A DNA stretch of 20,046 nt from a virus, in the IMG/VR virus record IMGVR_UViG_3300002231_001595, positions 167-20,212 of that record. One strand, given 5' to 3'. A program made the position numbers and the translations under genes. Positions 3,491-16,274 of this stretch are shown here, piece by piece. Below the pieces are notes generated by a model, which was given only the letters and a program-made list of their open reading frames with translations, was not told where the DNA came from and ran no database searches. Numbering within the stretch: the first letter of the stretch is position 1; the number at the start of each line of letters is the position of its first letter.

Positions 3491-3790
3491 CTATATATTT
3501 TTCTTTGACTGTATTGCTGCTTGTCTACCAGCAAATGTCTTCTTACCTTTCAAGTAGATAAAAGCGACAACTAATTTAGGCCCACCGGGCTGTGGTGGGT
3601 CCCCAGGGCGGTCCCCAACCGTAGTGAGCACTTCGGCTCGTCCAGTGTGCTTAGGGTCCTTAGAGAGCCTCCTAGCGGCATGGTCGGCCTGTTTGAGGGA
3701 GATAGGACCGAACAGTTCTTTGTTAGCGTCCTCTCGGTAGTACCACACTAAAGAAGGAATATGTGTGTACGATGATCCTGTGTTAGTCAT
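3491..3790 (-). CDS. Hypothetical protein
   Basis: 99 residues. The N terminus has aromatic residues and a segment 'WYYREDANKELFGPISLKQADHAARRL' style that resembles GYF-2-type or similar small domains; the middle holds a Pro/Gly-rich loop (GDRPGDPPQPGGP), and the end is basic. The family is not recognised. The start ATG overlaps the stop of the HR-x-NGLPA gene at 3787 by 4 bases. Confidence 0.65.
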   Translation of the reverse strand: MTNTGSSYTHIPSLVWYYREDANKELFGPISLKQADHAARRLSKDPKHTGRAEVLTTVGDRPGDPPQPGGPKLVVAFIYLKGKKTFAGRQAAIQSKKNI

Positions 3791-4008
3791 ATCACTTGCT
3801 TTCCGTGTAGCCAGTATTCTTCTATCTTTTGGTTGTTCTCATACTTAACGAATGCAGGACCGTTCTCTCGGTGTGCATAGCCATGCACGTAATAAACTTC
3901 ACATCCATCAGCCATAACAAGGGCAGGCAAACCGTTGTCTCTGTGTCTAGCTCCACGCTCATCGTACCAGTTCTCAGTACCGTTTGGGTATATTTTTAGA
4001 CTAGTCAT
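3787..4008 (-). CDS. HR-x-NGLPA repeat protein, copy 1
   Basis: 73 residues with one and a half copies of a repeat: HRDNGLPA at 22-29, then a G-x-E-x-YY strand (35-40), HRENGPA at 46-52, and a closing EEYWLHGK (63-70). The pattern 'W…HR.nGLPA…G.E.Y…G..HRe.GPA…EyW..G' recalls MORN_2/YwqK-type repeats and small phage proteins of unknown function. It is first of three tandem copies, each linked to the next by a 4-8-base overlap. The function is unknown. The fold is probably an extended beta-hairpin meander. Confidence 0.8.
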   Translation of the reverse strand: MTSLKIYPNGTENWYDERGARHRDNGLPALVMADGCEVYYVHGYAHRENGPAFVKYENNQKIEEYWLHGKQVI

Positions 4009-4268
4009 TTGATGACAAAGTGTTCCTTTCGTAGGAAAGCCCCATCAACCCACCACTCCTTAACTAGGATCGGAGAACCAATACAGTCGTAAGAGTGATA
4101 TAGCATTGCAGGTCCACCTACCCTGTGCCTTAATCCCTGTTCAAAATAACTTTCGCTACCATCTACAGACACCATAGCAGGCAGTCCATTTTCTCTGTGG
4201 GGCTGATAACTGCCCTCTTTCGTCCATTGCTCGACACTATGATCCTGCGTATAAGTGTACTTAGCCAT
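4005..4268 (-). CDS. HR-x-NGLPA repeat protein, copy 2
   Basis: 87 residues. HRENGLPA lies at 24-31, HRVGGPA at 48-54, and EWWVDG at 71-76, the same three landmarks as in the neighbouring copies. The N-terminal 23 residues and the loop at 57-70 diverge freely. The start overlaps the stop of copy 3 by 8 bases and its stop overlaps the start of copy 1 by 4, so the three copies form one translational run. They look like an old tandem duplication, since identity is limited to the motifs. Confidence 0.8.
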   Translation of the reverse strand: MAKYTYTQDHSVEQWTKEGSYQPHRENGLPAMVSVDGSESYFEQGLRHRVGGPAMLYHSYDCIGSPILVKEWWVDGAFLRKEHFVIK

Positions 4269-4548
4269 GAATCGTACTTACGAAAGGTTTAGCAGGTTCC
4301 GAGCGAACAAGAGTACCACGCACCCACCACTCTTTTAATTTCCTCATAGTTCCAAATACTGGAATACAGAGTGTAACAGCTGGCCCACATTCTCGGTGCT
4401 TTACGCCATGCTCATAATATACTTCTCTACCATCAGGATGTATGATAGCGGGTAGTCCATTGGATCTGTGCCACAACTTACCTTTTGAGGATTCGATTGT
4501 CCAGTACTCTGTGCCGTCAGAACTTACTGTATAGTTAACCTTACCCAT
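4261..4548 (-). CDS. HR-x-NGLPA repeat protein, copy 3
   Basis: 95 residues from the ATG at 4548, chosen because GGAAGA sits about 8 bases upstream and the overlap with the SDR-like gene is 8 bases; an ATG at 4569 lacks this. The landmarks are HRSNGLPA at 27-34, HRECGPA at 51-57 and EWWVRG at 73-78. It is the longest of the three tandem copies, with a C-terminal extension of about 17 residues. The function is unknown. Confidence 0.8.
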   Translation of the reverse strand: MGKVNYTVSSDGTEYWTIESSKGKLWHRSNGLPAIIHPDGREVYYEHGVKHRECGPAVTLCIPVFGTMRKLKEWWVRGTLVRSEPAKPFVSTIHG

Positions 4549-5287
4549 GCATCTTCCATATGCCCGCACTCAGGCTTGTGGTTGCTCGATAACCAGTCTC
4601 TGCGTGAGTCCTTGTCATATCAGGAGCCACACGCCACATAATAGAGAATGGAAGAGTTTGTAAAGTGACCGGAGCTAATGTATGACCTCCGGTTGTTCGT
4701 TGCCATGTAATATCTGCGGCTCGGTGCAGATTTACAGGGGTCTCATGGCCCACGTTATACACACCAGTGAGTCCTTCAGTAAACTTAGACCAAAAGACAC
4801 TAAAGAACTTTATAAAGTCCTCCTGAAACAAAAAGGTTCTCTCTTGATACCCAGGTAGAGGGACGTTAACTGCTTGTTGCGCACTAATGTCCCCTAAATA
4901 TCCATGAATAATACCTGTGTGTATATCTTGTCCGTAAACATTAAACGTTCGCAAGACAAGTGTTCTAGGAGCTTCTCTGAACGCAGATGCCTCAGAAGCA
5001 GCACAACGAATGGTATATAATGACTTTGTGTCCCTTGTAGGAGGGATGATCAAGTCTGAATCCTCGGAAAAGGAGGCCACGGAATCACTACTCCAATAGA
5101 TATCTGAGGAGGAGAGTACTAACGTAGGTAGGTTAGGCATCTTAGGTGGGATAACGTGTCCCCCAAAGACATGATAGTCTGCTCCCCCAGCGTAATCTGC
5201 AAGCTCATACCCGTTTTTTATGAACCAGGATTTCACTAAACCTAGCGTATTGTGCCAACCAGACAGGTATACTATAGGTCGAGTCAC
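4541..5287 (-). CDS. Degenerate NAD-dependent epimerase (extended SDR)-like protein
   Basis: 248 residues from a GTG at 5287 with a GTGA overlap. The order of motifs fits an extended short-chain dehydrogenase such as a nucleotide-sugar epimerase: strand IVYLSG (5-10), LVLSSSDIY (57-64, like 'ysSs.vYG'), LVLRTFNVYG (110-119), a ligand loop with QERTFLFQEDF (148-158), and GVYNVG (175-180). The catalytic Y-x3-K is Y91-TIR-C95, so the lysine is a cysteine. The Gly-rich Rossmann motif is reduced to GWHNTLG, and the protein is about 60 residues shorter than usual. It is probably inactive as an oxidoreductase or has a new role, for example in binding. The fold call is good; the function is not. Confidence 0.7.
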   Translation of the reverse strand: MTRPIVYLSGWHNTLGLVKSWFIKNGYELADYAGGADYHVFGGHVIPPKMPNLPTLVLSSSDIYWSSDSVASFSEDSDLIIPPTRDTKSLYTIRCAASEASAFREAPRTLVLRTFNVYGQDIHTGIIHGYLGDISAQQAVNVPLPGYQERTFLFQEDFIKFFSVFWSKFTEGLTGVYNVGHETPVNLHRAADITWQRTTGGHTLAPVTLQTLPFSIMWRVAPDMTRTHAETGYRATTSLSAGIWKMHG

Positions 5288-5397
5288 TTTTTCAAGTCCT
5301 CAAAATCCTTACACTTACAGATCAGAGGAATCTTTCCACAGTTCTTACATCGTGGAAGTTCTTGTTCCTTCTCTTTCTTCGTCTTCTTCTTAGTCAT
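5284..5397 (-). CDS. Zinc-binding mini-protein (37 aa)
   Basis: 37 residues from the ATG at 5397, which has a GGAGA ribosome site about 8 bases upstream; a longer reading from 5469 would overlap the next gene by 80 bases. The N-terminal half is a run of Lys, Thr and Glu; the rest has CKNC and CKC (C18, C21, C27, C29), enough for a single zinc site. It is possibly a nucleic-acid-binding or adaptor peptide. It overlaps both neighbours by a few bases, which supports translation. Confidence 0.6.
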   Translation of the reverse strand: MTKKKTKKEKEQELPRCKNCGKIPLICKCKDFEDLKK

Positions 5398-5596
5398 TGT
5401 CTGTCTCCAACGTAGGCAGTGTTCCTTCTCCCAGTTGCTTATAGTAGCGTGAAGATGCAATGACCGCAAGTTCTAGGTCTGTTTGGAAGGTTGTTACGGA
5501 GTAAAACTTCTCTTCTCCGTCTTGTTTCCAACGAAACTCCACGTTCCAAACCTTGTCGTCTAGTACCTTAAACCATCTTGTGCGAAACTCTTTCAT
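5390..5596 (-). CDS. Hypothetical protein
   Basis: 68 residues. The N terminus forms likely beta strands (WFKVLDDKVWNVEFRWKQ, then EEKFYSVTTFQ) followed by a helix (LELAVIASSRYYKQL) and an acidic tail. The start overlaps the stop of the nuclease gene (TAATG). No family is recognised. Confidence 0.65.
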   Translation of the reverse strand: MKEFRTRWFKVLDDKVWNVEFRWKQDGEEKFYSVTTFQTDLELAVIASSRYYKQLGEGTLPTLETDND

Positions 5597-6096
5597 TAGT
5601 CCTCATCCATCCATTGTTCAGGGTCAGTGTCCAGTAGATCAGACAGTAAACCAATAAATACCTCCGCACCGTCAATGCTCGTGTGCATACCAAACATCCT
5701 AAAGTCCCAGTACTCTACATCATTGTGCATAAAGTAGATGGGTTGCCTGTTTCGCGTAAACACCAGAAGGGGAAGCTTGTGCTCAGGACATTGGTCTACA
5801 GCCTGTTGCCACCACTTCCTCAGTAGTCCTTGTTTCTCTGTGAACAAGTGGTCAAGTGTCCAGCCCTCTACATTCTTCGACTCAACGCACCAAGGGAAAG
5901 ACTCATCAAGAGTTACAATGTCCCCCGCTACGTCCATTGCCTTACGAGAGAAGCCTCTTGTAGCAAAGGAGCCAGACCCTGGTGTTCTAAAGAACTCAGA
6001 GCCCCACCATTCTGCGAACTTCTTAACGAGGATACGCTCTCCACGTTGTCCCTTTCCTCGGGCTTTCTTACCAACTTTAGAACGATCAACGGCCAT
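5596..6096 (-). CDS. Hjc-like PD-(D/E)XK nuclease, possible Holliday-junction resolvase
   Basis: 166 residues. The N terminus (GKGQRGERILVKKFAEW, 14-30) matches the 'kG..fEr.l...l...' helix of archaeal Hjc-type resolvases, with E20 as a catalytic candidate. RTPGSGSF follows at 37-44, then D55 and GDIV (58-61) supply the metal-binding Asp and VESKN (71-75) the E-x-K. So the order E…D…ExK is intact. It would cut branched or mismatched DNA late in recombination, consistent with the RecA/gp32 genes nearby. A general nuclease is the alternative. The start shares a 14-base identity with the start of the next upstream gene. Confidence 0.72.
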   Translation of the reverse strand: MAVDRSKVGKKARGKGQRGERILVKKFAEWWGSEFFRTPGSGSFATRGFSRKAMDVAGDIVTLDESFPWCVESKNVEGWTLDHLFTEKQGLLRKWWQQAVDQCPEHKLPLLVFTRNRQPIYFMHNDVEYWDFRMFGMHTSIDGAEVFIGLLSDLLDTDPEQWMDED

Positions 6097-6289
6097 ATAA
6101 CTCGTACTTCTTTCCTGCGTAGTTTAGCAGATTGTCTAAAAACTCACTATCCGACATGTAGAACATACCACTAGCCCTCTGATCCGGCGTGGCTGTAGCG
6201 ATTAGCTGTCCAACACGAAAGTCCGGGTACTTATCTAGTGTTTGCCCTAAAAGGGCTAGTATCTCCTTAGGTCTGCGATCAACGGCCAT
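6086..6289 (-). CDS. Hypothetical protein
   Basis: 67 residues. It has a helical N terminus (RPKEILALLGQTLDKYPDFRVGQLIATAT) and a C-terminal helix (DSEFLDNLLNYAGKKYELYG), a shape seen in many small phage proteins of unknown role. Its first residues MAVDR are identical to those of the nuclease that follows. The stop overlaps the nuclease start by 11 bases, and the start overlaps the end of the six-repeat gene. Confidence 0.65.
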   Translation of the reverse strand: MAVDRRPKEILALLGQTLDKYPDFRVGQLIATATPDQRASGMFYMSDSEFLDNLLNYAGKKYELYGR

Positions 6290-7352
6290 CTTCTGTTGCC
6301 TCTCTATACCTAGCCCCTAGTGTTTCAAAGGAAGCCAAGGTGTTATTCTCTAGCATTTTGATTCTAGGGTCCTTGATTGCGGCCTTCCACTCTCTCTTAG
6401 TTAGAGTAGCGCCAAACAAAGAGAAGGCTTCATCCATACCTGAGATTGCATTAATAGCAGGACCCTCGCTGTTATGAAGCATACCACAAAAGAAGTATTT
6501 ACGTAGCCCTAGTTCAGGACAAGTAAATGCTGCACCACCAGTTCGATGCAACTTCCCGTATTTTGCATACAAGTGCGCAGCGCCAACATCATCAACTACA
6601 GCTGTTGGTTCGTTGTCGTCGGCTCTATGTAGATCACCGAGAACTCTGTATTCATAGGTACCGTCTGGTCCCACAATAGCGGGTCCGTCAGAACGGTGCA
6701 GCTTGTTTCGCCTGTAGTATTTATTTGCGTGCACATTATAGAGGTTTGGCTCCTCATACTCATTAGGAACAAACGATAAGCTAAGTCCCCTGTTCCCGGT
6801 TTCTCCTATCTCTACCGCAGGTCCGTCTGTTCGGTGAAGCTCGTTAAACTGAAAGTATAGTTTGGATCCACCCGGAAAGATCACAGTGGGAGTATTCAAG
6901 TCACTGTGTAGAATTCCTCCCACATGGTGAACCTTAATCTTACCCTCAATTCCGTCTGTTTGTGTGTGGTGCGGATCCCACTCTCCCCAACCATCGCCTG
7001 CCCAAGCAAGACACCCCGCCACGACACTACGCCTTGTGTGGATCGAAGGAAGCCTGTCAGCGCTGAGAGAGAAGTGTAAGGTTGCCTTGTCTGTTACAGG
7101 ACGAATCTGATGTAAGCCTAGGAACTTATAATCTCTATCCCCATAGTTTGATCCTGAAAAGCATTGCTGTAAACCATCAAACACTAGTTTCTTAGTAGTT
7201 CCTTCGTGAAGCCTTGTTACTTGTACTTCCTTTGGTTCCCCAATAACTACATCAAATAGGTGTAGTTCTTCATCCTCTGTTAACTCATCAGCGGGTATAA
7301 TCCGAGTAACTCCGTTTTCAACGATTTCAACGAGGTCGTTTTTGTCCAACAT
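6279..7352 (-). CDS. Six-repeat HR-x-GPA protein
   Basis: 357 residues. It has an N-terminal domain (1-145) without visible repeats, then six spaced HR-type repeats: LHSDLNTPTV 148-157, LHRTDGPAV 172-180, LHRSDGPAI 218-226, LHRADDNEPTAV 241-252, LHRTGGAAF 268-276 and LHNSEGPAI 292-300, each followed by a Gly and Tyr strand. The C terminus is a helical tail (320-357). It is the long relative of the single-repeat proteins in this window; here the motif is GPA rather than GLPA. Spacing of 20-45 residues suggests a beta-solenoid or meander. Its function is unknown; binding to a protein or glycan is possible. Confidence 0.75.
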   Translation of the reverse strand: MLDKNDLVEIVENGVTRIIPADELTEDEELHLFDVVIGEPKEVQVTRLHEGTTKKLVFDGLQQCFSGSNYGDRDYKFLGLHQIRPVTDKATLHFSLSADRLPSIHTRRSVVAGCLAWAGDGWGEWDPHHTQTDGIEGKIKVHHVGGILHSDLNTPTVIFPGGSKLYFQFNELHRTDGPAVEIGETGNRGLSLSFVPNEYEEPNLYNVHANKYYRRNKLHRSDGPAIVGPDGTYEYRVLGDLHRADDNEPTAVVDDVGAAHLYAKYGKLHRTGGAAFTCPELGLRKYFFCGMLHNSEGPAINAISGMDEAFSLFGATLTKREWKAAIKDPRIKMLENNTLASFETLGARYREATEDGR

Positions 7353-7932
7353 CTAACTTATCTCCAAATACTGCCTCTTCTGGAGGCCAGCCATTATGGA
7401 TTCTCTTGTATAAGGTTCTCTTTGCGACTTTGCAGTCTGGGTGCTTAGACCACTCAGCAATCGTCTGTGTCACGCCATTGATCGTGAGGTTGATGTTGCT
7501 GCGCTGGTTCCTGTTCTGCTCAGTCCTTGATAACCACCTGACGTTCCCAGGCTCATAGTTACCATTCGTGTCCACCCTGTCAATGGTATATTTTGGATCG
7601 GGTCGAGATCCTACGTGCATATAAAACGCTTCAAAGGACTTCCTCCAAAGACTGCACACTTCGATGCCCCTGCCTCCGTAGTTAGGATAGTCTTTACTTG
7701 AAGGATTGTGGCATCGCTGGTTCATCCCAACCCACACAGAATACTCTGGAGGTCTTTCCTTCTTACTAGCCTTACGAGAGCAGGATCTACACATAAGTGT
7801 AGATCCTGCTCTAAGGGAAGCTAAGCGAATGACCCTCGTAGTCTGCTTACAGCCTAGGCACAGGCACTTGTACCCCTTCTTAGCCTTAGCTCGTACCATC
7901 CAGGCGCCATAGACTTTTCCTACCTCATTCAT
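7327..7932 (-). CDS. HNH homing-type endonuclease
   Basis: 201 residues from the ATG at 7932, which gives an ATGA overlap with the small membrane gene. The parts in order are a zinc site (CLCLGC and MCRSC near 23-28 and 48-51), the usual phage HNH lead 'YSVWVGMNQRCHNP…YPNYGGRGIEV', the catalytic core YTIDRVDTNGNYEPGNVRW (about 112-130), and a C-terminal helix-turn-helix (WSKH…RTLYKRIHNGWPPEEAVF). This matches free-standing phage HNH enzymes that spread by cutting uninserted DNA. A 16-bp perfect hairpin lies in the coding region. The end overlaps the next gene by 26 bases, a sign of insertion between genes. Confidence 0.88.
   Translation of the reverse strand: MNEVGKVYGAWMVRAKAKKGYKCLCLGCKQTTRVIRLASLRAGSTLMCRSCSRKASKKERPPEYSVWVGMNQRCHNPSSKDYPNYGGRGIEVCSLWRKSFEAFYMHVGSRPDPKYTIDRVDTNGNYEPGNVRWLSRTEQNRNQRSNINLTINGVTQTIAEWSKHPDCKVAKRTLYKRIHNGWPPEEAVFGDKLDVGQKRPR
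7777..7812. repeat. 16-bp perfect inverted repeat in the HNH gene
   Basis: Arms at 7777-7792 and 7797-7812 are exact reverse complements (AGAGCAGGATCTACAC) separated by the four bases ATAA. In the reading frame of the HNH gene it codes for RAGSTLMCRSCSR, including the second zinc-binding cysteine pair. A perfect 16-base stem inside a coding sequence is unlikely by chance. No T run follows, so it is not a usual terminator. Confidence 0.9.
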
Positions 7933-8033
7933 CCTAACAAATACCAAAGTACGTAGTCAAAGACTAATCCTAGGAAGAATCCGAAAGTCAAGAAGGAGAG
8001 GTTCTTGCTCGTTCTACAAAGCGCTTGCTTCAT
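7929..8033 (-). CDS. Small membrane protein (34 aa)
   Basis: 34 residues, beginning MKQALCRTSKN and ending in one hydrophobic segment (about 12-34: LSFLTFGFFLGLVFDYVLWY). The ATG at 8033 has an ATGA overlap with the upstream stop, and its own TGA overlaps the ATG of the HNH gene, so it fits a translational chain on both sides. This double overlap is the main evidence that it is real. It probably sits in the inner membrane, with a basic N terminus inside. No function is assigned. Confidence 0.6.
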   Translation of the reverse strand: MKQALCRTSKNLSFLTFGFFLGLVFDYVLWYLLG

Positions 8034-8227
8034 CGCTTCTTTTGGGGCTTACGCTGCGCACGAGACGTGCTAAGGCGCTCCAAGAACATGTCCAAGGTCG
8101 CGCCCGGAGTCACACCAAGAACCTGTAGGCGCCCGTCTAGGCTCTTACAGTAGAAGTCTCGATCCTTACCATACAATCGAGCCTTGACGTTTGCGGAGGG
8201 AATCTGAACCGAAATATTGACATTCAT
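8030..8227 (-). CDS. Hypothetical protein
   Basis: 65 residues, with likely beta strands at the start (NISVQIPSANVKARLYG), a basic tail (RAQRKPQKKR) and a leucine-rich helix between (ATLDMFLERLST). The basic tail could bind nucleic acid, but no family is recognised. Both ends overlap the neighbouring genes by 4 bases. Confidence 0.65.
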   Translation of the reverse strand: MNVNISVQIPSANVKARLYGKDRDFYCKSLDGRLQVLGVTPGATLDMFLERLSTSRAQRKPQKKR

Positions 8228-8874
8228 AGGTACACCACCAAAGGAGCATTTGTTACGTTATATCGTTCATTGCAAACAGAAGCATTTGCAACCACAGCGT
8301 TATTTAGGTTGTACAGGCCATAGCCGTTATGGATGTGGCCACACACAACAAGTTTAAGGTTATCCATAGACTCAATAAGTTGCTTTTGGTACTTACACCC
8401 TACAGGTTCCCCTCGAACCGTTCTGTCTCCACGGTCTAGTGGAGGACCATGGGTTACTAAGATATCCGTGTTCGCAGGAACCTTGTCCCAGACTTGCTTC
8501 ATGTTGGGGCGATTCACATTAAATGCCCAATCGTAGAACCAAGGCTGCCTGGGTTCACCGTAGATGTTTAGTCCCTCTACAGTAACGGACTCTTGGTTTA
8601 GTGTGATGATTACACTTTCTGCTTCTTCGTTTAGTAGATCTACTGCTTTGTCTGGATCATCCTCAAACAGCAAGTCGTGGTTACCGGCAACAAAGATTTT
8701 ATGCTTCGCGGGTTGCTTACTAAACCACTTACCAAACTCGCGGATACGATGAGGCCGTCCCTGGAACGTGGCATCGCCAGAGTGTAGTAGAACATCACAC
8801 TCAGGGATTACTAACTCTCCGTGCTTAATGTGCGTATCGGAGATACACACGATCTTAGTCTTCGTTTTAGTCAT
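8224..8874 (-). CDS. Metallophosphoesterase (MPPED/UPF0046-like)
   Basis: 216 residues from the ATG at 8874, which overlaps the upstream TGA (ATGA); a GTG at 8880 is the alternative. The calcineurin-type metal motifs are all present: SDTH (12-15), HSGD (31-34), GNHD (64-67), VTHGPP and CGHIHNGYG, with the His/Asp ligands intact. Spacing and the 'HTH…D…GNHD…GHxH' order fit the small MPPED-like group that hydrolyses phosphodiesters or phosphate monoesters. Unlike the SbcD-like gene of this phage it is short and has no partner ATPase, so it is more likely a nucleotide or cyclic-nucleotide phosphodiesterase, possibly against host signalling. The substrate is unknown. Confidence 0.85.
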   Translation of the reverse strand: MTKTKTKIVCISDTHIKHGELVIPECDVLLHSGDATFQGRPHRIREFGKWFSKQPAKHKIFVAGNHDLLFEDDPDKAVDLLNEEAESVIITLNQESVTVEGLNIYGEPRQPWFYDWAFNVNRPNMKQVWDKVPANTDILVTHGPPLDRGDRTVRGEPVGCKYQKQLIESMDNLKLVVCGHIHNGYGLYNLNNAVVANASVCNERYNVTNAPLVVYL

Positions 8875-9125
8875 ATCCACTCTATGGAGGCAGGCTTATC
8901 CTTGCCTTTTGCTTCCGCTAGTTCTTTCTCTAGTCTGTTTATTGTAGTGAGCAGGAAAGTGATTCCCTTGCTGAGTTTTACTCTCATAGGCACAGGAAGG
9001 CGAGTTAAACAGTGACACCCTCCATTTGTATGGACACCTGTAGACCTGCCCCACACACACCCTCCGTCCGAGCAACCTACTCCTAGTGCTCTCAGACTAT
9101 CATGTATATCTTCAGAGATTTTCAT
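8871..9125 (-). CDS. Hypothetical protein, Cys/Gly-rich
   Basis: 84 residues from the ATG at 9125, which has a strong AAGGAGAGG ribosome site and an ATGA overlap with the upstream gene; a longer in-frame start at 9152 lacks both. The N-terminal half has four Cys and many Gly (VGCSDGGCVWGRSTGVHTNGGCHCLTR style), the rest is helical and basic. It is possibly a small zinc protein. No family is recognised. Confidence 0.65.
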   Translation of the reverse strand: MKISEDIHDSLRALGVGCSDGGCVWGRSTGVHTNGGCHCLTRLPVPMRVKLSKGITFLLTTINRLEKELAEAKGKDKPASIEWI

Positions 9126-9409
9126 TGCTGGCCTCTCCTTACGGCAGCCCACTCTTTGATTTCTTTTCGTGCAAGTGCTGGTGTTTTCTGTACTTTACCG
9201 TATCTAGTTCGGCACTTTACTGAAAACCAGTCCTTCCAAGAATCTTCACCATAGTTGTATAGATTAGCGATGTAGGACTCTAGTAATCGGCTGGACCCAC
9301 CAAATCGAACATAGATAGCGGACATTCTCCCTACAACTTCGCCGTCCTCTAGTATGTCTGTAACACACGTATCCTTTGTTATGCGCGTTGATGTTCCGAA
9401 GGAGATCAC
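9122..9409 (-). CDS. Hypothetical protein
   Basis: 95 residues from a GTG at 9409. The GTGA overlap with the 36-residue gene upstream supports this start. It has beta strands at the start (TDILEDGEVVGRMSAIYVRFGG), then helices and a basic C terminus. No known family is recognised. Confidence 0.65.
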   Translation of the reverse strand: MISFGTSTRITKDTCVTDILEDGEVVGRMSAIYVRFGGSSRLLESYIANLYNYGEDSWKDWFSVKCRTRYGKVQKTPALARKEIKEWAAVRRGQQ

Positions 9410-9516
9410 TTTTCCAGTTCCTGCTCATACCTGTACTCTACAGTAGGAGACCACCTAGGGTAGTAGTAAGCATCCGATTCAGCAAGCAAAAACCCTAGGT
9501 CCTTTGTAGAGGCCAT
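9406..9516 (-). CDS. Small hypothetical protein (36 aa)
   Basis: 36 residues from the ATG at 9516 (MASTKDLGFLLAESDAYYYP…), ending at a TGA that overlaps the GTG of the next gene by 4 bases. It has aromatic and acidic residues (DAYYYPRWSPTVEYRYEQELEK). The ribosome site is weak and the gene is short, so the overlap is the main support. It sits just after the lipoprotein gene. Confidence 0.5.
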   Translation of the reverse strand: MASTKDLGFLLAESDAYYYPRWSPTVEYRYEQELEK

Positions 9517-9547
9517 CTGTAATGGTGACGTACTCACTCTAGCAGAG

Positions 9548-10228
9548 CTAAACAAACGGAAGCAGCATCATAGGAACTAGAAGGTTGTACATGTTCATGG
9601 CACAGCAACTTCCAGTTCGAAGGTGAAGGTATAAGGAGTAAACGAAAACACCAATAGACACAAGATAACTTCCATGTCCTGTAGGAGTAGTGGACAGCTG
9701 TAGATCGTTCATCCAAATCGGCCTAGGGTTATCTTCGTCTGTAAACCAGGCATGTGCTGTAGTGAAGTGTGCACATGCTGGAGCCTCTGGCAAAAGATCG
9801 GCGTTTACAGGAACCAACGGAGGTCTACTACTACGCATATGAACAGAACAGTCTTGATCAAGAGCAAAGTCTGCAACTTCAACAGTGATCAAAGGATGCC
9901 TCACTACGTCCTCTCCACCCATATACCTGTAAGAGTATGTGTAGGTTGAGTCAAAGGAAATATCTGAGTCTGTTACACATAGATTAGAGATTTCAGAAGA
10001 CGGAGTAGAATAGGTGGTGTGAGTGCTTCGATCAAAGGCCAGCAATGCTCGGGCATTGGCTACTTCCGTACAGGATGGCCCTACAGAAGCATCGGGGGTG
10101 ACAAAGGAGCCGTCCGTATACCCGCTGTCTGTGGTTGGTTGTGTTCCGCTGTCCATGGGTCCGACAACGGGACCCGCAGAGCCACAGGCAGAGAGGAGAA
10201 GAGCAAGGATTAGTGCGTTGTTGGTCAT
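9548..10228 (-). CDS. Secreted lipoprotein with its own promoter (possible moron or superinfection-exclusion gene)
   Basis: 226 residues. A short hydrophobic N terminus (ALILALLL, 5-12) leads to a lipobox LSAC with Cys15 and Gly at +2, so lipidation and probably outer-membrane sorting are predicted. Then comes a D/S/T/G/P-rich linker (to about 50), the kind common in lipoproteins of Myxococcota and related bacteria, and a globular part with further cysteines (53, 84, 127, 152 and 208-209) that could form disulfides. The last 40 residues are unusually hydrophobic. Its promoter is described separately; an mRNA from it would begin at the start codon. Phage lipoproteins often block superinfection or alter the cell surface; that role is inferred. 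The neighbouring genes show no signal peptide. Confidence 0.8.
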   Translation of the reverse strand: MTNNALILALLLSACGSAGPVVGPMDSGTQPTTDSGYTDGSFVTPDASVGPSCTEVANARALLAFDRSTHTTYSTPSSEISNLCVTDSDISFDSTYTYSYRYMGGEDVVRHPLITVEVADFALDQDCSVHMRSSRPPLVPVNADLLPEAPACAHFTTAHAWFTDEDNPRPIWMNDLQLSTTPTGHGSYLVSIGVFVYSLYLHLRTGSCCAMNMYNLLVPMMLLPFV

Positions 10229-10234
10229 AACACT

Positions 10235-10262
10235 ACTATAAGACGGCTAGCGGGGGTGTCAA
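10235..10262 (-). promoter_or_regulatory. Near-consensus sigma-70 promoter for the lipoprotein gene
   Basis: On the minus strand TTGACA (10262-10257, a perfect -35) is followed after 16 bases by TATAGT (10240-10235, 5 of 6 in the -10). Only six bases (AGTGTT) lie between the -10 and the ATG at 10228, so transcription should begin at or within a base or two of the A of the start codon. The promoter occupies the gap between the methyltransferase and lipoprotein genes, one of few gaps of this size in the window. Confidence 0.8.
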
Positions 10263-10266
10263 CCCA

Positions 10267-11298
10267 TTATTGGATCAGGGTTCCGACAAACAAAAACTCA
10301 GTTACATGCGAACTACTCGGCGTTCCTACCTTAACACCCGACTTATTGGAGATTCCGATCTTATGGCCGATGTAGGCAGGGTGCTTTATCTCATAGGTTC
10401 TAAGATTGTACTTCTTTCCTAACGTATCTTCGATCTGCTGCCTACTAAGATATCCGGTACTATTGAAAGACAATACAACATACTTTGACTTGAGTAGGTC
10501 TACTACCTGCTGGAATGCAGTAAGTGCATATTTTGAGCTATTCCATAGAGACTTGCGGGTCTTTGTGTCTATTCGCTTCCGTGCCTTCCCGTAGACCTCT
10601 GGTTCGTCCCACTTCACTAAGGTTTCCCAAATATGATAGTTACCTAAGTAGCTGTGCTGGTTGTAGGGAGGGTCTAGGTACGTAAGGTCTGCCGTGTAGG
10701 TCTTCAGACACTCTGTGTCCAGCATGTTCGAGGTGGAGCCGGTGCCTGTGAGGCTGAGTGAAGGAATACGGAGCGACAGAGGATTGAAGCTACGCTTGGA
10801 CCATTGCTTAAGGTAAGCCATCTGTACGCCGCATGTAGAATCAACACGGTCTGCTGCCTCCATGAGGGACGTGAGTAGTATGGACTTGAACAACTTGTCT
10901 GTGAGGTTCATGTCTTCGATGCGATTACGCACTGCTTCTATCTTTTGTGCGTTCTCCTTCTGGAAAAACCAAGATTCGTCAGAGTACGTGTGTGTAAAGA
11001 ACCCACTCTTAAGATACTTGGCATGATACCCTGAAACACCTTCGTGTAGGTCTATAATGGCTTCTGTAGCATCTTTTAGGTAGGTGAATGCATCTGCAGC
11101 AACGTAGCAGTTAGCTAGGGTGTAAGCATAAGCTGCGTAGTCATTCGCATGAACATGATAACCTAGTGTCTTTAGGTCAAAACCTACTCGGCTTGTACCG
11201 GAGTAGAGATCTATTACTGTACCCTTGTCGAGAGTATCTGCAATAGCCTCTCGTATCTTAGGGATAAGTAGTCTCTTTGATCCCAGGTACTTAATCAT
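10267..11298 (-). CDS. D12-class N6-adenine DNA methyltransferase
   Basis: 343 residues. The N terminus MIKYLGSKRLLIPKI is typical of Dam/D12-class enzymes. Motif I for AdoMet binding is DLYSGTSRVG (30-39), and motif IV is DPPYNQHSY (209-217), the catalytic DPPY that flips and methylates adenine. The region between (about 60-205) is the target-recognition part and varies. The recognition site cannot be read from sequence; GATC is only a guess. It would protect phage DNA from host restriction or regulate its processing. It overlaps the upstream gene by 4 bases. No matching restriction enzyme is visible. Confidence 0.88.
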   Translation of the reverse strand: MIKYLGSKRLLIPKIREAIADTLDKGTVIDLYSGTSRVGFDLKTLGYHVHANDYAAYAYTLANCYVAADAFTYLKDATEAIIDLHEGVSGYHAKYLKSGFFTHTYSDESWFFQKENAQKIEAVRNRIEDMNLTDKLFKSILLTSLMEAADRVDSTCGVQMAYLKQWSKRSFNPLSLRIPSLSLTGTGSTSNMLDTECLKTYTADLTYLDPPYNQHSYLGNYHIWETLVKWDEPEVYGKARKRIDTKTRKSLWNSSKYALTAFQQVVDLLKSKYVVLSFNSTGYLSRQQIEDTLGKKYNLRTYEIKHPAYIGHKIGISNKSGVKVGTPSSSHVTEFLFVGTLIQ

Positions 11299-11513
11299 TG
11301 TTTGTGCTCCCTCATGACCACTCCGCCGTTTTCGTAGTAGCTCTCGTCTCCACTGTCACAGACGTATGCAGGAAGTCCGTTGTCTCTGTGCGCGTAGCCA
11401 TTATTATTGCACCACCACTCAGAGTGAACTCCGTCTTCCCAAATAAGAACTACCTTACCTCCATCAAAGACTATTGACTCTTTCCAGTTAACATACATTA
11501 TGGTGTAATTCAC
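11295..11513 (-). CDS. HR-x-NGLPA repeat protein, copy 4
   Basis: 72 residues from the GTG at 11513. HRDNGLPA is at 42-49, followed by a CDSGDESYYENG strand. The second HR repeat is lost, so this is a single-repeat copy, with a long beta-rich N terminus ending in EWWCNNNG. An ATG at 11498 is an alternative start; a GAGAGGTGA ribosome site lies upstream of it but at a long spacing. Its stop overlaps the methyltransferase start by 4 bases, so the two are translationally coupled. The function is unknown. Confidence 0.75.
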   Translation of the reverse strand: MNYTIMYVNWKESIVFDGGKVVLIWEDGVHSEWWCNNNGYAHRDNGLPAYVCDSGDESYYENGGVVMREHKQ

Positions 11514-11520
11514 CTCTCAT

Positions 11521-11721
11521 CTAACTTACTTTCATCTTAACTAGGTAACCACTAGTAGCATAATATGCCTCATATCCATTACTCACTATAACGGCGGGTA
11601 ATCCGTTGCCCCTGTAAATCTTACCTGAGGAGTTACTCCACAACTCTTTAATGACTCCGTGTGTTCTAGAAATCAACTTCACATTAACGTCACCAAACCT
11701 ATGTAAAGTAATTTTGTCCAT
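11521..11721 (-). CDS. HR-x-NGLPA repeat protein, copy 5 (diverged)
   Basis: 66 residues. The motif is YRGNGLPA at 36-43, so the His is replaced by Tyr, followed by NGYEAYYATSGYL. No second repeat. It lies between copy 4 and an unrelated gene, with short gaps rather than overlaps. The change of the invariant His suggests a copy under relaxed constraint. The function is unknown. Confidence 0.7.
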   Translation of the reverse strand: MDKITLHRFGDVNVKLISRTHGVIKELWSNSSGKIYRGNGLPAVIVSNGYEAYYATSGYLVKMKVS

Positions 11722-11724
11722 GTT

Positions 11725-12123
11725 CTACTTTCGGATAATATCAATGTAACCATTCCCGCTACATTCCTGACACCGGAACAAATCTTTACCAGACGCAACC
11801 GCTTCTCTCTCGTCCGACGTGAGAGGACGCCAAGTACCTCGGTAATCAAGATCGTACTCAGCAGGCCCAGCGGGACTTGCAGTATGCCCAGACACCACTA
11901 TTCTACCCTCCCACACCTCAACATGGCCAGGTTCTGGTAGATCAGCCCATACATCTGTCGCGTCTAGTCCGCTCTCTTCCATATCATGCCGAACACCACA
12001 GGTAGCAGACAACACCACAGCCTGATCACTAGTCCTAGAAACGGCAACAACTGCTTGTTGTGACCCTTTGATATATGGACAAACTGTGTCGTCCAACGGA
12101 TTTAGATCTGTAAAGTTATCCAT
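11725..12123 (-). CDS. Hypothetical protein with C-terminal CxxC
   Basis: 132 residues. The middle is beta-rich (VEVWEGRIVVSGHTASPAG…) and the C terminus carries CQECSGNG (near 117-124), half of a zinc knuckle like those in DnaJ-type cysteine repeats. Two further Cys lie earlier (VCPYIKG near 15 and ATCGV near 42) and might complete a site. The family is not recognised. Confidence 0.65.
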   Translation of the reverse strand: MDNFTDLNPLDDTVCPYIKGSQQAVVAVSRTSDQAVVLSATCGVRHDMEESGLDATDVWADLPEPGHVEVWEGRIVVSGHTASPAGPAEYDLDYRGTWRPLTSDEREAVASGKDLFRCQECSGNGYIDIIRK

Positions 12124-12129
12124 GGTTTT

Positions 12130-12285
12130 CTATTCATCGTAGCTGGGGAACAGAGCGAACCAAACAGCATCCACCACACCATACACTGCGTACATTGCTT
12201 CCAAACAAACAGTCAGTAGGGCATAAAATAGATCAGAAATGAGCACACTATTGCTGACCTGCGGGAAGGTGTATGTTCTACTCAC
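12130..12285 (-). CDS. Small membrane protein (51 aa)
   Basis: 51 residues from a GTG at 12285 whose GTGA overlaps the stop of the upstream gene; the stop lies just before the next gene. A hydrophobic stretch of about 30 residues (18-47: DLFYALLTVCLEAMYAVYGV… to …VWFALF) suggests one or two membrane segments. The overlap at the start is the main support, as there is no independent ribosome site. No family is recognised. Confidence 0.55.
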   Translation of the reverse strand: MSRTYTFPQVSNSVLISDLFYALLTVCLEAMYAVYGVVDAVWFALFPSYDE

Positions 12286-12560
12286 AGCGTGGGACCAAAG
12301 TCTGGGACAATGATCTTAGGTTCTTCTTCCTTCTTGCGTTCTTGCATCAGGTCAAGGAGCCTACGAGTCGTCTCTCCCTCAGAAAGCTTGGCCACAGTAA
12401 TAGACTGCGCTTCTTGGTCTACGGAGATATCAAAATGCAGCTTAATCCACCGAGCCGCTTCTTCGTCTTGGATGATCTCGTCAAAGATCTTTCCTAGCGT
12501 CATGTACTTGTTCGCTAGTTCTTCCTCTGTAAGTTCTTCTACTGCTTCTTCTTCTGCCAT
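12282..12560 (-). CDS. Hypothetical acidic helical protein
   Basis: 92 residues, very acidic at the N terminus (MAEEEAVEELTEEELANKY), then a helical centre and a basic stretch (QERKKEEEPK). The family is not recognised; such small acidic helical proteins in phages often bind host enzymes, but nothing here shows that. Confidence 0.65.
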   Translation of the reverse strand: MAEEEAVEELTEEELANKYMTLGKIFDEIIQDEEAARWIKLHFDISVDQEAQSITVAKLSEGETTRRLLDLMQERKKEEEPKIIVPDFGPTL

Positions 12561-12571
12561 GTCTTATCCCT

Positions 12572-12850
12572 TTACTGGTTTAGCTTACGAGTTCTCTTAC
12601 CATCTTCAGTTACGTGATACACTGATAACTTTCTTCCGCGTACCCAATACTCTTCTACCTTAATTTTATCTAAGAAGTATACCAGAGCAGGACCATTTTC
12701 CCTGTGGCGTTGTCCATACTCAAAGTAGTACTCTCCTCCACGCACATTAACAACCGCAGGAAGTCCACTAGAACGATGCAACAAAGCATTCCGTCCTGAT
12801 AAGGTCCACCGCTCTCCATCCTCGTCTATTTTGCATATCTCCTTATCCAA
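12572..12850 (-). CDS. HR-x-NGLPA repeat protein, copy 6
   Basis: 92 residues from a TTG at 12850; there is no ATG upstream in frame before a stop. HRSSGLPA lies at 25-32, HRENGPA at 49-55 and EEYWVRGR at 66-73, so it has the full two-repeat layout of copies 1-3. A basic tail (KRTRKLNQ) follows. Upstream (higher coordinates) lie a relic of a further copy and a hairpin. The function is unknown. Confidence 0.75.
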   Translation of the reverse strand: MDKEICKIDEDGERWTLSGRNALLHRSSGLPAVVNVRGGEYYFEYGQRHRENGPALVYFLDKIKVEEYWVRGRKLSVYHVTEDGKRTRKLNQ

Positions 12851-12868
12851 ATATTTGTTCTTTCAAAT

Positions 12869-12946
12869 CTAGTAGAGAACCATAGTGGCAAATCCATTTT
12901 CTCGGTGATACATTCCTAGCACACTCCACTCTTCGTGCCCCTCAAC
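12869..12946 (-). pseudogene. Relic of an HR-x-NGLPA gene
   Basis: An open frame bounded by stops on both sides (TAG at 12947-12949 and TAG at 12869-12871) reads EEWSVLGMYHRENGFATMVLY. It keeps the signature W-x-x-x-G-x-x-HRENG-x-A, with LP changed to F, but has no upstream part, no ribosome site and no second half. It is best read as a decayed copy. It fills the gap between the hairpin and copy 6. A tiny 14-residue peptide from the ATG at 12913 cannot be excluded but is unlikely. Confidence 0.65.
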
Positions 12947-12977
12947 CTAGCTTACACTTAGGCTTCAACTTGAGGGG
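12938..12977. terminator. Hairpin of 8-bp arms, possible terminator or processing site
   Basis: Inverted repeat CCCCTCAA (12938-12945) and TTGAGGGG (12970-12977) with a 24-base loop that contains a further CCTA/TAGG pair. It lies in the only gap of about 120 bases without an intact gene. Neither strand has a T run after it, so factor-independent termination is weakly supported. RNA processing or stability is an alternative. Confidence 0.45.
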
Positions 12978-12987
12978 TCTGTGCTTC

Positions 12988-13377
12988 CTAGCCATGTGAC
13001 TCACCTATAAGACCTAAGCCTAACCGTTTCAAGTCCTCTAGGCTCATTTTGTACACAATCGTGTCAGAGAAGCCATTGGCCGCTCTTCTGGCGTTTAAGA
13101 TCTCTTCTTGTAAGTGTGCTGCTTTCTTACATAAGGAGACTAATACTTCTCCACGCCAGTTGCGATCCTCAGAGAAGGTTTGAACAAAGGCCGCGATAAC
13201 AACCTCTGTAGGTGAAGACTCGAAAGTATTCTGGATGTTCTCCATAACCGCCGTATATTCTTGCTCTAACTTCGCTGCCTTCTCGTATAGTGACTTCTTA
13301 ACGTCTGATCCAGAGTAGGCGAACTGCCAAGCTCCGTCACTAATATCAACTACCGCTACTGCATTCTTATTGGCCAT
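12988..13377 (-). CDS. Hypothetical protein, coiled helical
   Basis: 129 residues. The sequence after residue 25 is mostly helical (VKKSLYEKAAKLEQEYTAVMENIQNTF, then further Leu and Ala helices). It overlaps the end of the SbcC-like gene by 11 bases and may work with SbcC/SbcD, but that is only a positional guess. It is not a known repair gene by eye. Confidence 0.65.
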   Translation of the reverse strand: MANKNAVAVVDISDGAWQFAYSGSDVKKSLYEKAAKLEQEYTAVMENIQNTFESSPTEVVIAAFVQTFSEDRNWRGEVLVSLCKKAAHLQEEILNARRAANGFSDTIVYKMSLEDLKRLGLGLIGESHG

Positions 13378-13750
13378 GGAGTTTAGACACCGTATCCTTC
13401 TTGACTACTGTTATGGTGTGAGGAAAATATTCCTTCAGAGTCTTATTGTGTGTGACACAAAACACACTACCGAAGTCCTTGTTCTGCTGGGTGAGCAAGG
13501 ACACAATACCAGACAGCCCAGAATCGTCAAGATTCTCAAAGGGCTCATCCATAAACCGAAAGTTTATGTTCTTGTTGGATCTTGAGGCGGCTAAGTCCCC
13601 TAAAGCAAGGGCAATACACACGTCTGCTCTTGCTCGTTCTCCTGAAGAAGAACTCTGGTAAGATTCTCCGCCATCTTTGTTGATCACCTTCACAGCGAAG
13701 ATACTACGAGTCTCGCCGTTCTTCAAGGTCTTTTCCGTCTGAAAACTCAA
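13367..13750 (-). CDS. sbcC: SbcC/gp46-like ATPase, C-terminal lobe (frame-shifted fragment)
   Basis: 127 residues in the frame that follows the second lesion. It has the ABC signature region SSSSGERARAD (the usual LSGGE is altered to SSSGE), Walker B FRFMDEPFENLDDSG and the H-loop CVTHN. These close the ATP site that begins with the Walker A of the N-terminal fragment. Removing one T of TTTT near 13742-13745 joins it smoothly to the preceding piece (KIEF then QTEKTLKNGETR), so the three pieces are one gene of about 637 residues. A TTG at 13750 would allow separate translation, but a lone lobe could not hydrolyse ATP well. Confidence 0.8.
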   Translation of the reverse strand: MSFQTEKTLKNGETRSIFAVKVINKDGGESYQSSSSGERARADVCIALALGDLAASRSNKNINFRFMDEPFENLDDSGLSGIVSLLTQQNKDFGSVFCVTHNKTLKEYFPHTITVVKKDTVSKLHGQ

Positions 13751-15101
13751 TCTTCATGTCCCCATTTGTTGCAATGTCTGCATACTTCTGTACTCGACTA
13801 TTGAGTAACGGAGTAACATGCTTGAGAAGATGAGGACGTAGACCCTTTGCACCGAAGGCATCGACCCAGAACGAACACTTGTCTGCTTTTTCTGTAACTG
13901 CAGTTAGCTCTACTGTAGCTTCTTTAACCTTAGTCTGTAGTTTCTCTATATCTTCATTTACTCTTTGAAGCATAGGAAGCACAGAACACTGCTCGCCTTG
14001 CTTGTCTTGTATCTGCTCTTGTACTCTAGTTAGTTGTAGTAGTAATGCTTGCTTGTTGTCCTTCATGGACCGGAATGAATCAATGTCCAAAGCAACCCTA
14101 TTGAGCTGATTTGAAACATCCGTAAGATTTCTACTTACCTCAGCCAAGCTATCTTCAGCCTTGCCTTTGACTAGCTCATACTCAGACGCAGCCTCACTGA
14201 GCCTTTCTAAGACAGAGCCCATGTGCCTTCTGTGTTCCTTAAGATCCTGTTGGTACTGCTCCAGTACCTTGGACTTGTGTACCTCTCCTACTTCCTGCGA
14301 ACACACAGGACAAGATCCAGTAAGAGCTTGTGTTTTGCTGATAGAGCCCTCAAGAGACTTGATGGCCGACTCTGCTAAGGACAACTCCAACCGGATCTGG
14401 TTGTTCTGCTTGTTTGCCTCTAACGCTAGCGCAGCAAGGTAGTTTCCACAGTTGTTCAGTTCCTCAGTTAGTTTAGCCTTCTCCGCAGATAGCGATTGTT
14501 GCTCTTCTAGTAGGTCTTCTTCACTAACATTGATCACAATAGCGTCTACGTCCTCATGTAGACTTTCTTCTGTGGCCTTAAGAGTAGTTAGTTCATTTGC
14601 TTTCTTTTGTTCAAAGGAAGCAATGTTGTCCTCTAGCTCCTTTTTTGTAACCTCATGCACACCTATCTCTCGTTGGTGAGACTCTAGCTGAGAGGATAGC
14701 TGAGCCTGCTCCTTAGATAGTGCAGCTGTCTGCACTTTTGCTAGCTTCTGCGCCTCAGAGAATACCTCTAGCTGTAGCAAGCCCTCTAAGGTGGTCTTAA
14801 TTCCACTGTCTGTGAGGGAAGCAAGCTTGATCTTTGACCCTGGCATCATGCAACTAAACGTATAAAAATCAAGATCTAGGATCTTATTAATACGCTCTTG
14901 TGTAAGAGCCACTTTGGCTCCTGTGGCGTCTTCGTCGTTAATTGTCAGCAGGAGGCCATTATGTGGCGACATTTCCTTACACTTACGATACCGCGTAACC
15001 ACATAGGTATTCTCTTCGTCTTGGAAATGCACAGATACTTTACAGTTCTTGCCTATTTGACGCTTGATTACTGCATCGTCCTTGAGACCCCGAATGGTCA
15101 C
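13704..15101 (-). CDS. sbcC: SbcC/gp46-like ATPase, coiled-coil and zinc-hook part (frame-shifted fragment)
   Basis: 465 residues from a GTG at 15101; the same frame is open up to 15200 and carries the Walker A loop (DSNGAGKSS) before the GTG. The coiled coil runs from about 120 to 420, with the zinc-hook CPVC in the middle (TGSCPVCSQEVGE), the feature that joins two Rad50/SbcC arms. The frame ends in a false tail after KIEFSDG. With SbcD (16271-17371) this would form a double-strand-break nuclease, as gp46/gp47 do in T4. The broken frame is discussed in the findings. Confidence 0.85.
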   Translation of the reverse strand: MTIRGLKDDAVIKRQIGKNCKVSVHFQDEENTYVVTRYRKCKEMSPHNGLLLTINDEDATGAKVALTQERINKILDLDFYTFSCMMPGSKIKLASLTDSGIKTTLEGLLQLEVFSEAQKLAKVQTAALSKEQAQLSSQLESHQREIGVHEVTKKELEDNIASFEQKKANELTTLKATEESLHEDVDAIVINVSEEDLLEEQQSLSAEKAKLTEELNNCGNYLAALALEANKQNNQIRLELSLAESAIKSLEGSISKTQALTGSCPVCSQEVGEVHKSKVLEQYQQDLKEHRRHMGSVLERLSEAASEYELVKGKAEDSLAEVSRNLTDVSNQLNRVALDIDSFRSMKDNKQALLLQLTRVQEQIQDKQGEQCSVLPMLQRVNEDIEKLQTKVKEATVELTAVTEKADKCSFWVDAFGAKGLRPHLLKHVTPLLNSRVQKYADIATNGDMKIEFSDGKDLEERRDS

Positions 15102-15141
15102 TCCCCATAGCGCCCAGCATAGCGAGTCTAGGAGACTGCTC

Positions 15142-15279
15142 TTACCGGCTCCGTTGGAGTCCTTTCCTGCGCCGTCCTGATTGTCCCCTAGGACGCAACG
15201 TTAGACCCACAGAATCAATTAGGAACTCATCGTCCTCAAAGGACAAGAAGTTCTGTATCTGTACCTTATTGAAGATCAT
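15142..15279 (-). CDS. sbcC: SbcC/gp46-like ATPase, N-terminal fragment
   Basis: 45 codons from the ATG at 15279 (which overlaps the upstream TGA), ending in a stop at 15142. Residues 1-31 (MIFNKVQIQNFLSFEDDEF…) match the start of gp46/SbcC proteins, 'i.nFlSf.~.~…L'. A +1 shift near 15190-15200 moves into the frame that carries GDNQDGAGKDSNGAGKSS, the Walker A. After that point this frame is nonsense (RGQSGRRRK…), so the natural protein must change frame here. Confidence 0.75.
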   Translation of the reverse strand: MIFNKVQIQNFLSFEDDEFLIDSVGLTLRPRGQSGRRRKGLQRSR

Positions 15280-15577
15280 TCAGATTCGTGTCCCAGAAGT
15301 TCATCAAAGGGAATCTCTAGTTGATTTTCGTCTTTCAAGAGGAACTTCCTTTGTCTCTTGATCCTCTATCCTCGTACATACGCAAGTAAGTACCACTGAG
15401 TAGTCCCCAGGACTCCAATCTAGCACCATCTAGGTTCTCTAGTTGGCTAAATACTGCAGCATAGATAGCCTGAGACACCGAGTAGGACTGGCCGTCCTCA
15501 GGCACAACCACACCAGCATCTGCATTGACTGTGTAGACCTTTTGTTCATCGACTGCAATTAAATGTACTCCACTCAT
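15276..15577 (-). pseudogene. Hypothetical protein with one frame break
   Basis: Frame one runs from the ATG at 15577 (with AGAGAG upstream) for 80 residues and ends in a serine-rich tail at 15335. Another frame then continues IKRQRKFLLKDENQLEIPFDELLGHESE to a TGA at 15276, which overlaps the ATG of the SbcC-like gene in the typical 4-base way. This indicates that the intact protein had about 100 residues with its end at 15276, and that one base is missing or two are extra between about 15355 and 15375. Its function is not known. Confidence 0.6.
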
Positions 15578-15580
15578 TCG

Positions 15581-15832
15581 CTACTCTCTTTCTTGTTCTT
15601 TAGTGTAAAAATCAAGCTCTAAGTAAGCACTGTCAAAGCCGTTCTCTACATAAGACTCGTTACCGTCAACTCCTACCAGGGCAGGTAAACCGTTACCTCG
15701 GTGTAGAATGCCGTTTTTACTCCAACACTCCCTATATAAAGCACCACCATAGTACTCAATACGAATGAGTACTCCACCAGGCTGGTGTATTGTCTTCTCA
15801 GAATACTGATATTCTGATTCTTTCATTGTCAC
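15581..15832 (-). CDS. HR-x-NGLPA repeat protein, copy 7
   Basis: 83 residues from a GTG at 15832 (GTGA overlap); an ATG at 15826 is an alternative. HRGNGLPA is at 44-51 after the strand YRECWSKNG, followed by GNESYVENG. The second repeat is absent and replaced by an acidic tail. It is the last of three tandem copies leading from SbcD towards SbcC. The function is unknown. Confidence 0.75.
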   Translation of the reverse strand: MTMKESEYQYSEKTIHQPGGVLIRIEYYGGALYRECWSKNGILHRGNGLPALVGVDGNESYVENGFDSAYLELDFYTKEQERE

Positions 15833-16059
15833 GGAGCCTCAACATAGTAACCATCAGGAGCCTTCTGGCCAAGAAACTTACCACGGAGCCAGTAGGACTC
15901 ATACCCCAAGGAATTCGTAACTGCAGGAAGACCGTTTTCTCTGTGTAGATCTCCCATTATGGTTTTCCAGTGTTCAGTGCACACACCATTAAAAACATAG
16001 TTCTCAATAAACACGACTTCTGATTTTCCAAACTCTATTCTTGTGCGCTTTACCAACAT
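15829..16059 (-). CDS. HR-x-NGLPA repeat protein, copy 8
   Basis: 76 residues. HRENGLPA at 39-46, preceded by EHWKTIMGDL, followed by LGYESYWLRGK. A single-repeat copy. The N terminus (residues 1-30) is beta-rich and shares little with the others. The stop overlaps the start of copy 7 by 4 bases. Confidence 0.77.
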   Translation of the reverse strand: MLVKRTRIEFGKSEVVFIENYVFNGVCTEHWKTIMGDLHRENGLPAVTNSLGYESYWLRGKFLGQKAPDGYYVEAP

Positions 16060-16064
16060 TATGA

Positions 16065-16274
16065 TTATGAGTGATCTACCTTAGTGCGCTGATATACACC
16101 ACCAAGGAAATATTCCTCTGTACCGCTACTGTAAACTATTGCAGGTAGTCCCCCTCCTCGATGAGGTTCGAACTTTTTGTTCAGCCATTTCTCAGCAGCT
16201 ACAACCCCGTCCTCATCATACGCGATTTTTACAGTGTGTCTGCCTGCAATAACAGTACGGTACGAGAAAGTCAT
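16065..16274 (-). CDS. HR-x-NGLPA repeat protein, copy 9
   Basis: 69 residues. HRGGGLPA at 38-45, following EKWLNKKFEP, with a SSGTEEYFLGG strand after it. It begins with an ATGA overlap on the SbcD stop, so it is translated directly behind the nuclease. It is the first of three tandem single-repeat copies. The function is unknown. Confidence 0.77.
   Translation of the reverse strand: MTFSYRTVIAGRHTVKIAYDEDGVVAAEKWLNKKFEPHRGGGLPAIVYSSGTEEYFLGGVYQRTKVDHS

Follow-up and report, generated by a model that had tools for sequence, protein, structure and literature searches.

Here we describe a family of small genes in a window of 20,046 nucleotides of viral DNA, which spans positions 167 to 20,212 of IMG/VR record IMGVR_UViG_3300002231_001595 and is nearly the entire record of 20,212 bases. 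The minus strand of this window carries nine small open reading frames (ORFs), all of them inside a replication and modification operon, whose products share a short core. An earlier note on the same DNA had reported nine intact genes in tandem runs of three, two and three, and all nine are present on the minus strand where it had placed them: three copies at 3787-4569, two at 11295-11721 and three at 15581-16274, with a lone copy at 12572-12850. The pattern [HY]R-x-x-GLPA-x5-G-x-E-x-Y, with its spacing fixed, has nine matches in the window and none in 100 shuffles of it. The wording of the core required correction, to HR[DESG][NSG]GLPA, with YR instead of HR in copy 5. The copies are as follows.

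3787..4008, minus strand: copy 1, 73 residues; two units, HRDNGLPA and HRENGPA; closing EEYWLHG
4005..4268, minus strand: copy 2, 87 residues; two units; overlaps copy 1 by 4 bases
4261..4569, minus strand: copy 3, 102 residues from GTG or 95 residues from an internal ATG; two units; overlaps copy 2
11295..11513, minus strand: copy 4, 72 residues; one unit, the N-terminal part longer; shares bases with the start of a DNA methyltransferase gene
11521..11721, minus strand: copy 5, 66 residues; one unit, YRGNGLPA
12572..12850, minus strand: copy 6, 92 residues from TTG; two units
15581..15832, minus strand: copy 7, 83 residues; one unit; overlaps copy 8 by 4 bases
15829..16059, minus strand: copy 8, 76 residues; one unit
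16065..16274, minus strand: copy 9, 69 residues; one unit; its start codon overlaps the stop of an SbcD-like gene

As had been proposed, copies 1, 2, 3 and 6 contain a second HRxxGPA unit, offset from the first by exactly 24 residues, and they end in E-[YW]-W-[LV]-x-G. The remaining copies (4, 5, 7, 8 and 9) have a single unit with a longer stretch N-terminal to it, and are truly one-unit genes rather than truncations caused by frame errors, because the adjoining gene starts immediately. Start codons are weak (TTG or GTG) in copies 3, 4, 6 and 7, and a later ATG is possible for copy 3. A relic and a six-repeat relative, both also noticed earlier, were recovered in the same window.

about 12878..12943, minus strand: relic, a lone unit EEWSVLGMYHRENGFATMVLY-stop with no gene surrounding it
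6279..7352, minus strand: 357-residue relative whose C-terminal two thirds hold six HRxxGPA-like units

Established models gave no name to these proteins: the window proteins had no match in Pfam, PHROGs, NCBIfam or PADLOC, a sequence search of the PDB returned chance-level matches only (e.g., Helicobacter IceA2 at E 1.1), and a related-loci search queried with copy 1 or the 357-residue protein found no relatives. Searches with tblastn pointed to weak relatives in Celeribacter phage P12053L, Agrobacterium phage Atu_ph07 and PA5oct-like Pseudomonas phages. The repeat unit, termed HRxxGPA, was written as W-x3-G-x2-HR-x2-GPA-x5-G-x3-[WY] with a period of about 23 residues, and a hidden Markov model profile of it was built from 786 outside units, with the window sequences excluded. 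When the 45 window ORFs were ranked with this profile, the top ten were exactly the nine copies and the 357-residue protein, and a profile-profile comparison (hhalign) of the window copies with HRxxGPA units gave E 5e-18. The nine genes and the 357-residue protein are therefore a divergent branch of the widespread viral HRxxGPA repeat and share common ancestry with it, which bears out the earlier view of old paralogous repeat modules related to units in other phage proteins. The window proteins conform to the unit, the step of 24 in two-unit copies arising from one inserted residue, and the window shows the same small, tandem, translationally coupled genes, several in one genome. The 357-residue protein has six LH[R/N/S] anchors and is homologous by profile (E 1.7e-8; 62.5 bits with the outside-unit profile).

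Viral HRxxGPA proteins (from Atu_ph07, P12053L, PA5oct and environmental phages, and Mimivirus R871) have the same unit by profile, the same predicted fold, and many copies encoded by small coupled genes in tandem. The window differs from them in the extra residue of its HRxNGLPA and the resulting 24-residue step, in an E-x-Y after the turn in place of K-x-W, and in the many copies that possess no more than one full unit. Strict HRxNGLPA patterns found nothing elsewhere in IMG/VR or in 84,980 genomes; since such patterns demand exact residues, the zero shows that HRxNGLPA is rare, not that it is unique. This sub-motif is what is particular to the window, while the wider family is already widespread. 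Long repeat proteins at two other loci (L097, 2264-4954; L163, 183-1133) carry an HRDND[KEL]PA sub-type, with a one-residue insertion as in the window's HRxNGLPA.

The HRxxGPA family is viral and bacterial, widespread, often multi-copy and unnamed. In IMG/VR, a DNA pattern for two units 23 residues apart matched at least 120 stretches; genomes of bacteria and archaea added at least 118, of which some, in high-GC genomes, lie in no convincing repeat ORF. The family is rare among cultured phages, and the motif was not found in the literature searched. Profile matches per virus reached 60 in one contig and 36, 34, 23, 20, 19 and 14 in others, with 9 in Atu_ph07, 2 in PA5oct and 1 in P12053L, counts to which one repeat-rich gene may contribute several matches. 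The contig with 60 (IMGVR_UViG_3300015050_001523; 322,518 bases) represents the largest expansion seen, its matches being spread along its length. Tandem runs occur in 51 of 200 loci with family ORFs, amounting to 58 runs, the longest of ten genes, and 106 of the 124 gene gaps inside such runs are within 30 nucleotides. Given many-copy viruses and frequent tandem runs elsewhere, the multiplication in the window is what this family usually shows, and the earlier suggestion that within-genome expansion is what stands out here does not hold; nor did the motif prove to be a domain with one function that other genomes carry once each. What emerges is a multi-copy repeat family, very common in environmental phages, to which neither Pfam, PHROGs nor NCBIfam devotes a model. 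A long-read study has reported that assembly strongly under-recovers repeat proteins of the MORN type (PMC9238414).

The surroundings of outside family members reveal no recurrent gene, with at most 3 of 150 neighbours sharing one family. Fusion proteins at four loci (L118, L123, L140 and L160) offered no clue to function, as their non-repeat domains have no Pfam name; in L118 (673-1743) and L160 (4575-5732) the units are joined to an unnamed N-terminal domain in which both proteins have a GT[DK]WCTA-like motif. About 20 HRxxGPA genes in tandem arrays (loci L253, L312 and L321) lie on a single contig of 56 kb from an archaeal metagenome-assembled genome (JABXKB010000001.1, titled Lokiarchaeota), which is possibly a misbinned or integrated virus.

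A related contig, L007, allows the position of the copies to be compared with a close relative. Its RecA is 70% identical to that of the window, and its genes follow the same order as in the window: SSB, RecA, SbcD, a homologue of the gene at 15335, SbcC, and homologues of the genes at 12988 and 12282. No HRxxGPA copy was found anywhere on its 14.3 kb. Two window genes border the run of copies 7-9.

16271..17371, minus strand: SbcD/gp47-like nuclease subunit
15335..15577, minus strand: conserved gene 3' of the copy 7-9 run, at the border of the cassette

Copies 7-9 stand exactly between these two genes, and in L007 SbcD is followed directly by the 15335 homologue. Copy 6 and the relic likewise stand exactly between the genes at 12988 and 12282, a gap that in L007 measures just 27 bp. 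As L007 keeps the replication operon without the copies, they are accessory cargo in that operon rather than parts of the replication machinery, whether by gain in the window or by loss in L007. Other RecA-related contigs had no family member in the stretches examined.

Between RecA and SbcD, L007 has a 216-residue ORF (8906-9556, plus strand) with a sub-threshold match to DruA (PF14236), and the window has nothing there; this DruA-like gene just before SbcD is different cargo around the same gene. The SbcC/gp46-like gene of the window (13367-15279, minus strand) is broken into three ORFs that differ in frame (15142-15279, 13704-15101 and 13367-13750), and in L007 SbcC is a single intact ORF of 634 residues. 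The frame breaks in the window gene come from errors in the assembly or from decay of the gene. The 15335 gene of the window is also out of frame near 15385.

At positions where window copies share a residue, the codon is also shared 153 times, against 131.7 expected at saturation. As codon sharing is near the saturation expectation, the duplications in the window are old and the protein sequence has been kept: the window copies are old genes retained by purifying selection on their protein sequence. Recent tandem duplication within the window was rejected, as synonymous sites are saturated, and a tree of the nine copies had branches too long and supports too low for the duplications to be ordered. 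Paralogues in other viruses are up to 97.6% identical. The earlier description of the family as old and still duplicating is thus right as to age, and as to continuing duplication it applies to other viruses and not to the window. Among recent paralogues elsewhere in the family, the ratio of nonsynonymous to synonymous substitution rates (dN/dS), computed on aligned blocks only, which favours conserved parts, had a median of 0.41 and exceeded 1 in 2 of 246 pairs; the positive selection that the earlier note had thought worth seeking did not appear in this wider set.

The predicted structure of copy 1, a two-unit protein, is all beta and confident (AlphaFold2; predicted local distance difference test [pLDDT] 95.9, predicted template modelling score 0.81), and copy 8, a one-unit protein, also gave a good all-beta model (pLDDT 88.4). 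A Foldseek search of a viral structure library with the copy 1 model returned 28 structures at E<=1e-3, mostly phage proteins, with others from giant viruses; these matches include proteins of Atu_ph07 and of Mimivirus, Harvfovirus and Hokovirus, some of them named “MORN repeat”. A structure-based definition of the MORN repeat gives it 23 residues, with GxG at the start of the unit, G10 and YEGEW at positions 13-17 (PMC7725318). Canonical MORN proteins (MORN1, MORN4, junctophilin, SET7/9) resemble the window proteins in their units of about 23 residues, which in the window are probably beta-hairpins too, in an NGxxH-like stretch found in some window copies, and in being the best, if weak, structural matches; they differ in that the window copies have neither the GxG...YEGEW pattern nor a Pfam MORN match. 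Six of the nine small copies lack GxG, which in copies 5, 7 and 9 is formed by the G of HR-G-x-G-LPA, and the two GxG of the 357-residue protein both lie outside its repeats. As the MORN period is kept within one residue but YEGEW is lacking, the window units are MORN-like and not canonical MORN.

Two Pfam families approach the unit from other directions. MORN_2 (PF07661) likewise consists of short beta-repeat units and has sub-threshold matches in outside HRxxGPA proteins, but no match over the Pfam cut-off anywhere in the window's record. DUF6745 (PF20530) includes an HR-x-x-GPA-like stretch that matches many outside family members, some above the cut-off, but it matches no window protein, and the outside matches span about 20-40 of its 206 positions. 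A match that is only unit-sized indicates a shared unit, not a shared domain.

MORN repeats are protein-protein interaction modules (PMC7725318). The explanation we favour, tentatively, is that the HRxxGPA repeats form beta-hairpins and are small MORN-like protein-binding modules that may have diverged towards different host or phage targets. The window proteins would then serve, like MORN repeats, as small interaction surfaces, in which the conserved HR..GPA core would hold the hairpins together, the variable hairpin positions and divergent ends would set the partner, and duplication would yield a set of binders with different partners. Their most likely use would come early in infection, in the binding of host proteins or of phage-host complexes for takeover or counter-defence, because the copies stand among replication genes and have a come-and-go distribution. 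Several observations weigh against such a role. The best solved structures for the copy 1 model, MORN4 and MORN1, were matched at E>=0.1 and are not significant, and the one-unit model of copy 8 found no MORN match among solved structures. Canonical motifs, with GxG and YEGEW together, are not seen, as no copy contains a YEGEW-type stretch; PADLOC and NCBIfam have no match to the window proteins; and the wider family does not show the dN/dS above 1 that an arms race would leave. The earlier note's decoys or inhibitors of a host protein stay a conjecture that the analysis neither demonstrates nor contradicts.

A broader form of the same idea, which we regard as conceivable if rather doubtful, would make HRxxGPA a general viral system of MORN-like binders, each copy neutralising or redirecting a different host toxin or defence enzyme, with HRxNGLPA as a separate old branch placed as cassettes in the replication operon. 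If so, HRxxGPA copies multiplied and diverged within a genome would each neutralise or redirect a different host protein.

As a special case of binding modules, the copies could form an antitoxin-like or counter-defence set, every copy directly binding and neutralising a different host toxin or defence nuclease. Bacillus YwqK is annotated as a MORN-variant protein. It forms a toxin-antitoxin pair with YwqJ, an LXG toxin (PMC6562991, PMC8321402), and is the precedent here. Paralogues that are small, tandem and diverged, and present in one relative but not in another, would suit such a set. However, pairing by neighbourhood was tried and yielded no recurrent partner gene: the arrays are not regularly flanked by a toxin or defence gene, and no toxin gene is seen beside the window copies. 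PADLOC gives no match, no dN/dS above 1 is observed, and MORN_2 (PF07661) finds nothing in the window's record. An antitoxin set appears unlikely.

It is distinctly less probable that the copies are self-assembling structural modules, stacked edge to edge like MORN1 dimers into a filament or shell in which they cap or space each other. MORN1 proteins do dimerise and oligomerise (PMC7725318), the all-beta models are of short sheets whose edges are probably open, and there are many copies per genome; but one-unit and two-unit copies occur together with very different ends, the whole set is absent from L007, and no virion genes neighbour it in the window. Near-neutral expansion, in which repeat-rich small genes are multiplied by recombination and kept for no strong reason, would fit the proneness of repeats to unequal recombination, the close paralogues elsewhere and the one relic in the window, but is improbable, as nine intact copies conserve the core despite synonymous saturation and family-wide dN/dS is below 1. 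Least probable of all is an accessory role in replication alongside the adjoining SbcCD, RecA or methyltransferase, suggested by the location of every copy inside the operon but disfavoured by L007, which has the same operon without copies, and by the unrelated genes that the family adjoins in other viruses.

For MORN-like binders with separate partners, the window is a compact test case, with nine small, confidently foldable and diverged paralogues in a single operon. The close syntenic relative without copies makes partner specificity and the effect on infection addressable gene by gene. In the middle of the same replication operon, a 226-residue ORF (9548-10228, minus strand), which has no Pfam match, has a lipoprotein-like N-terminus (ALLLSACGSAG).

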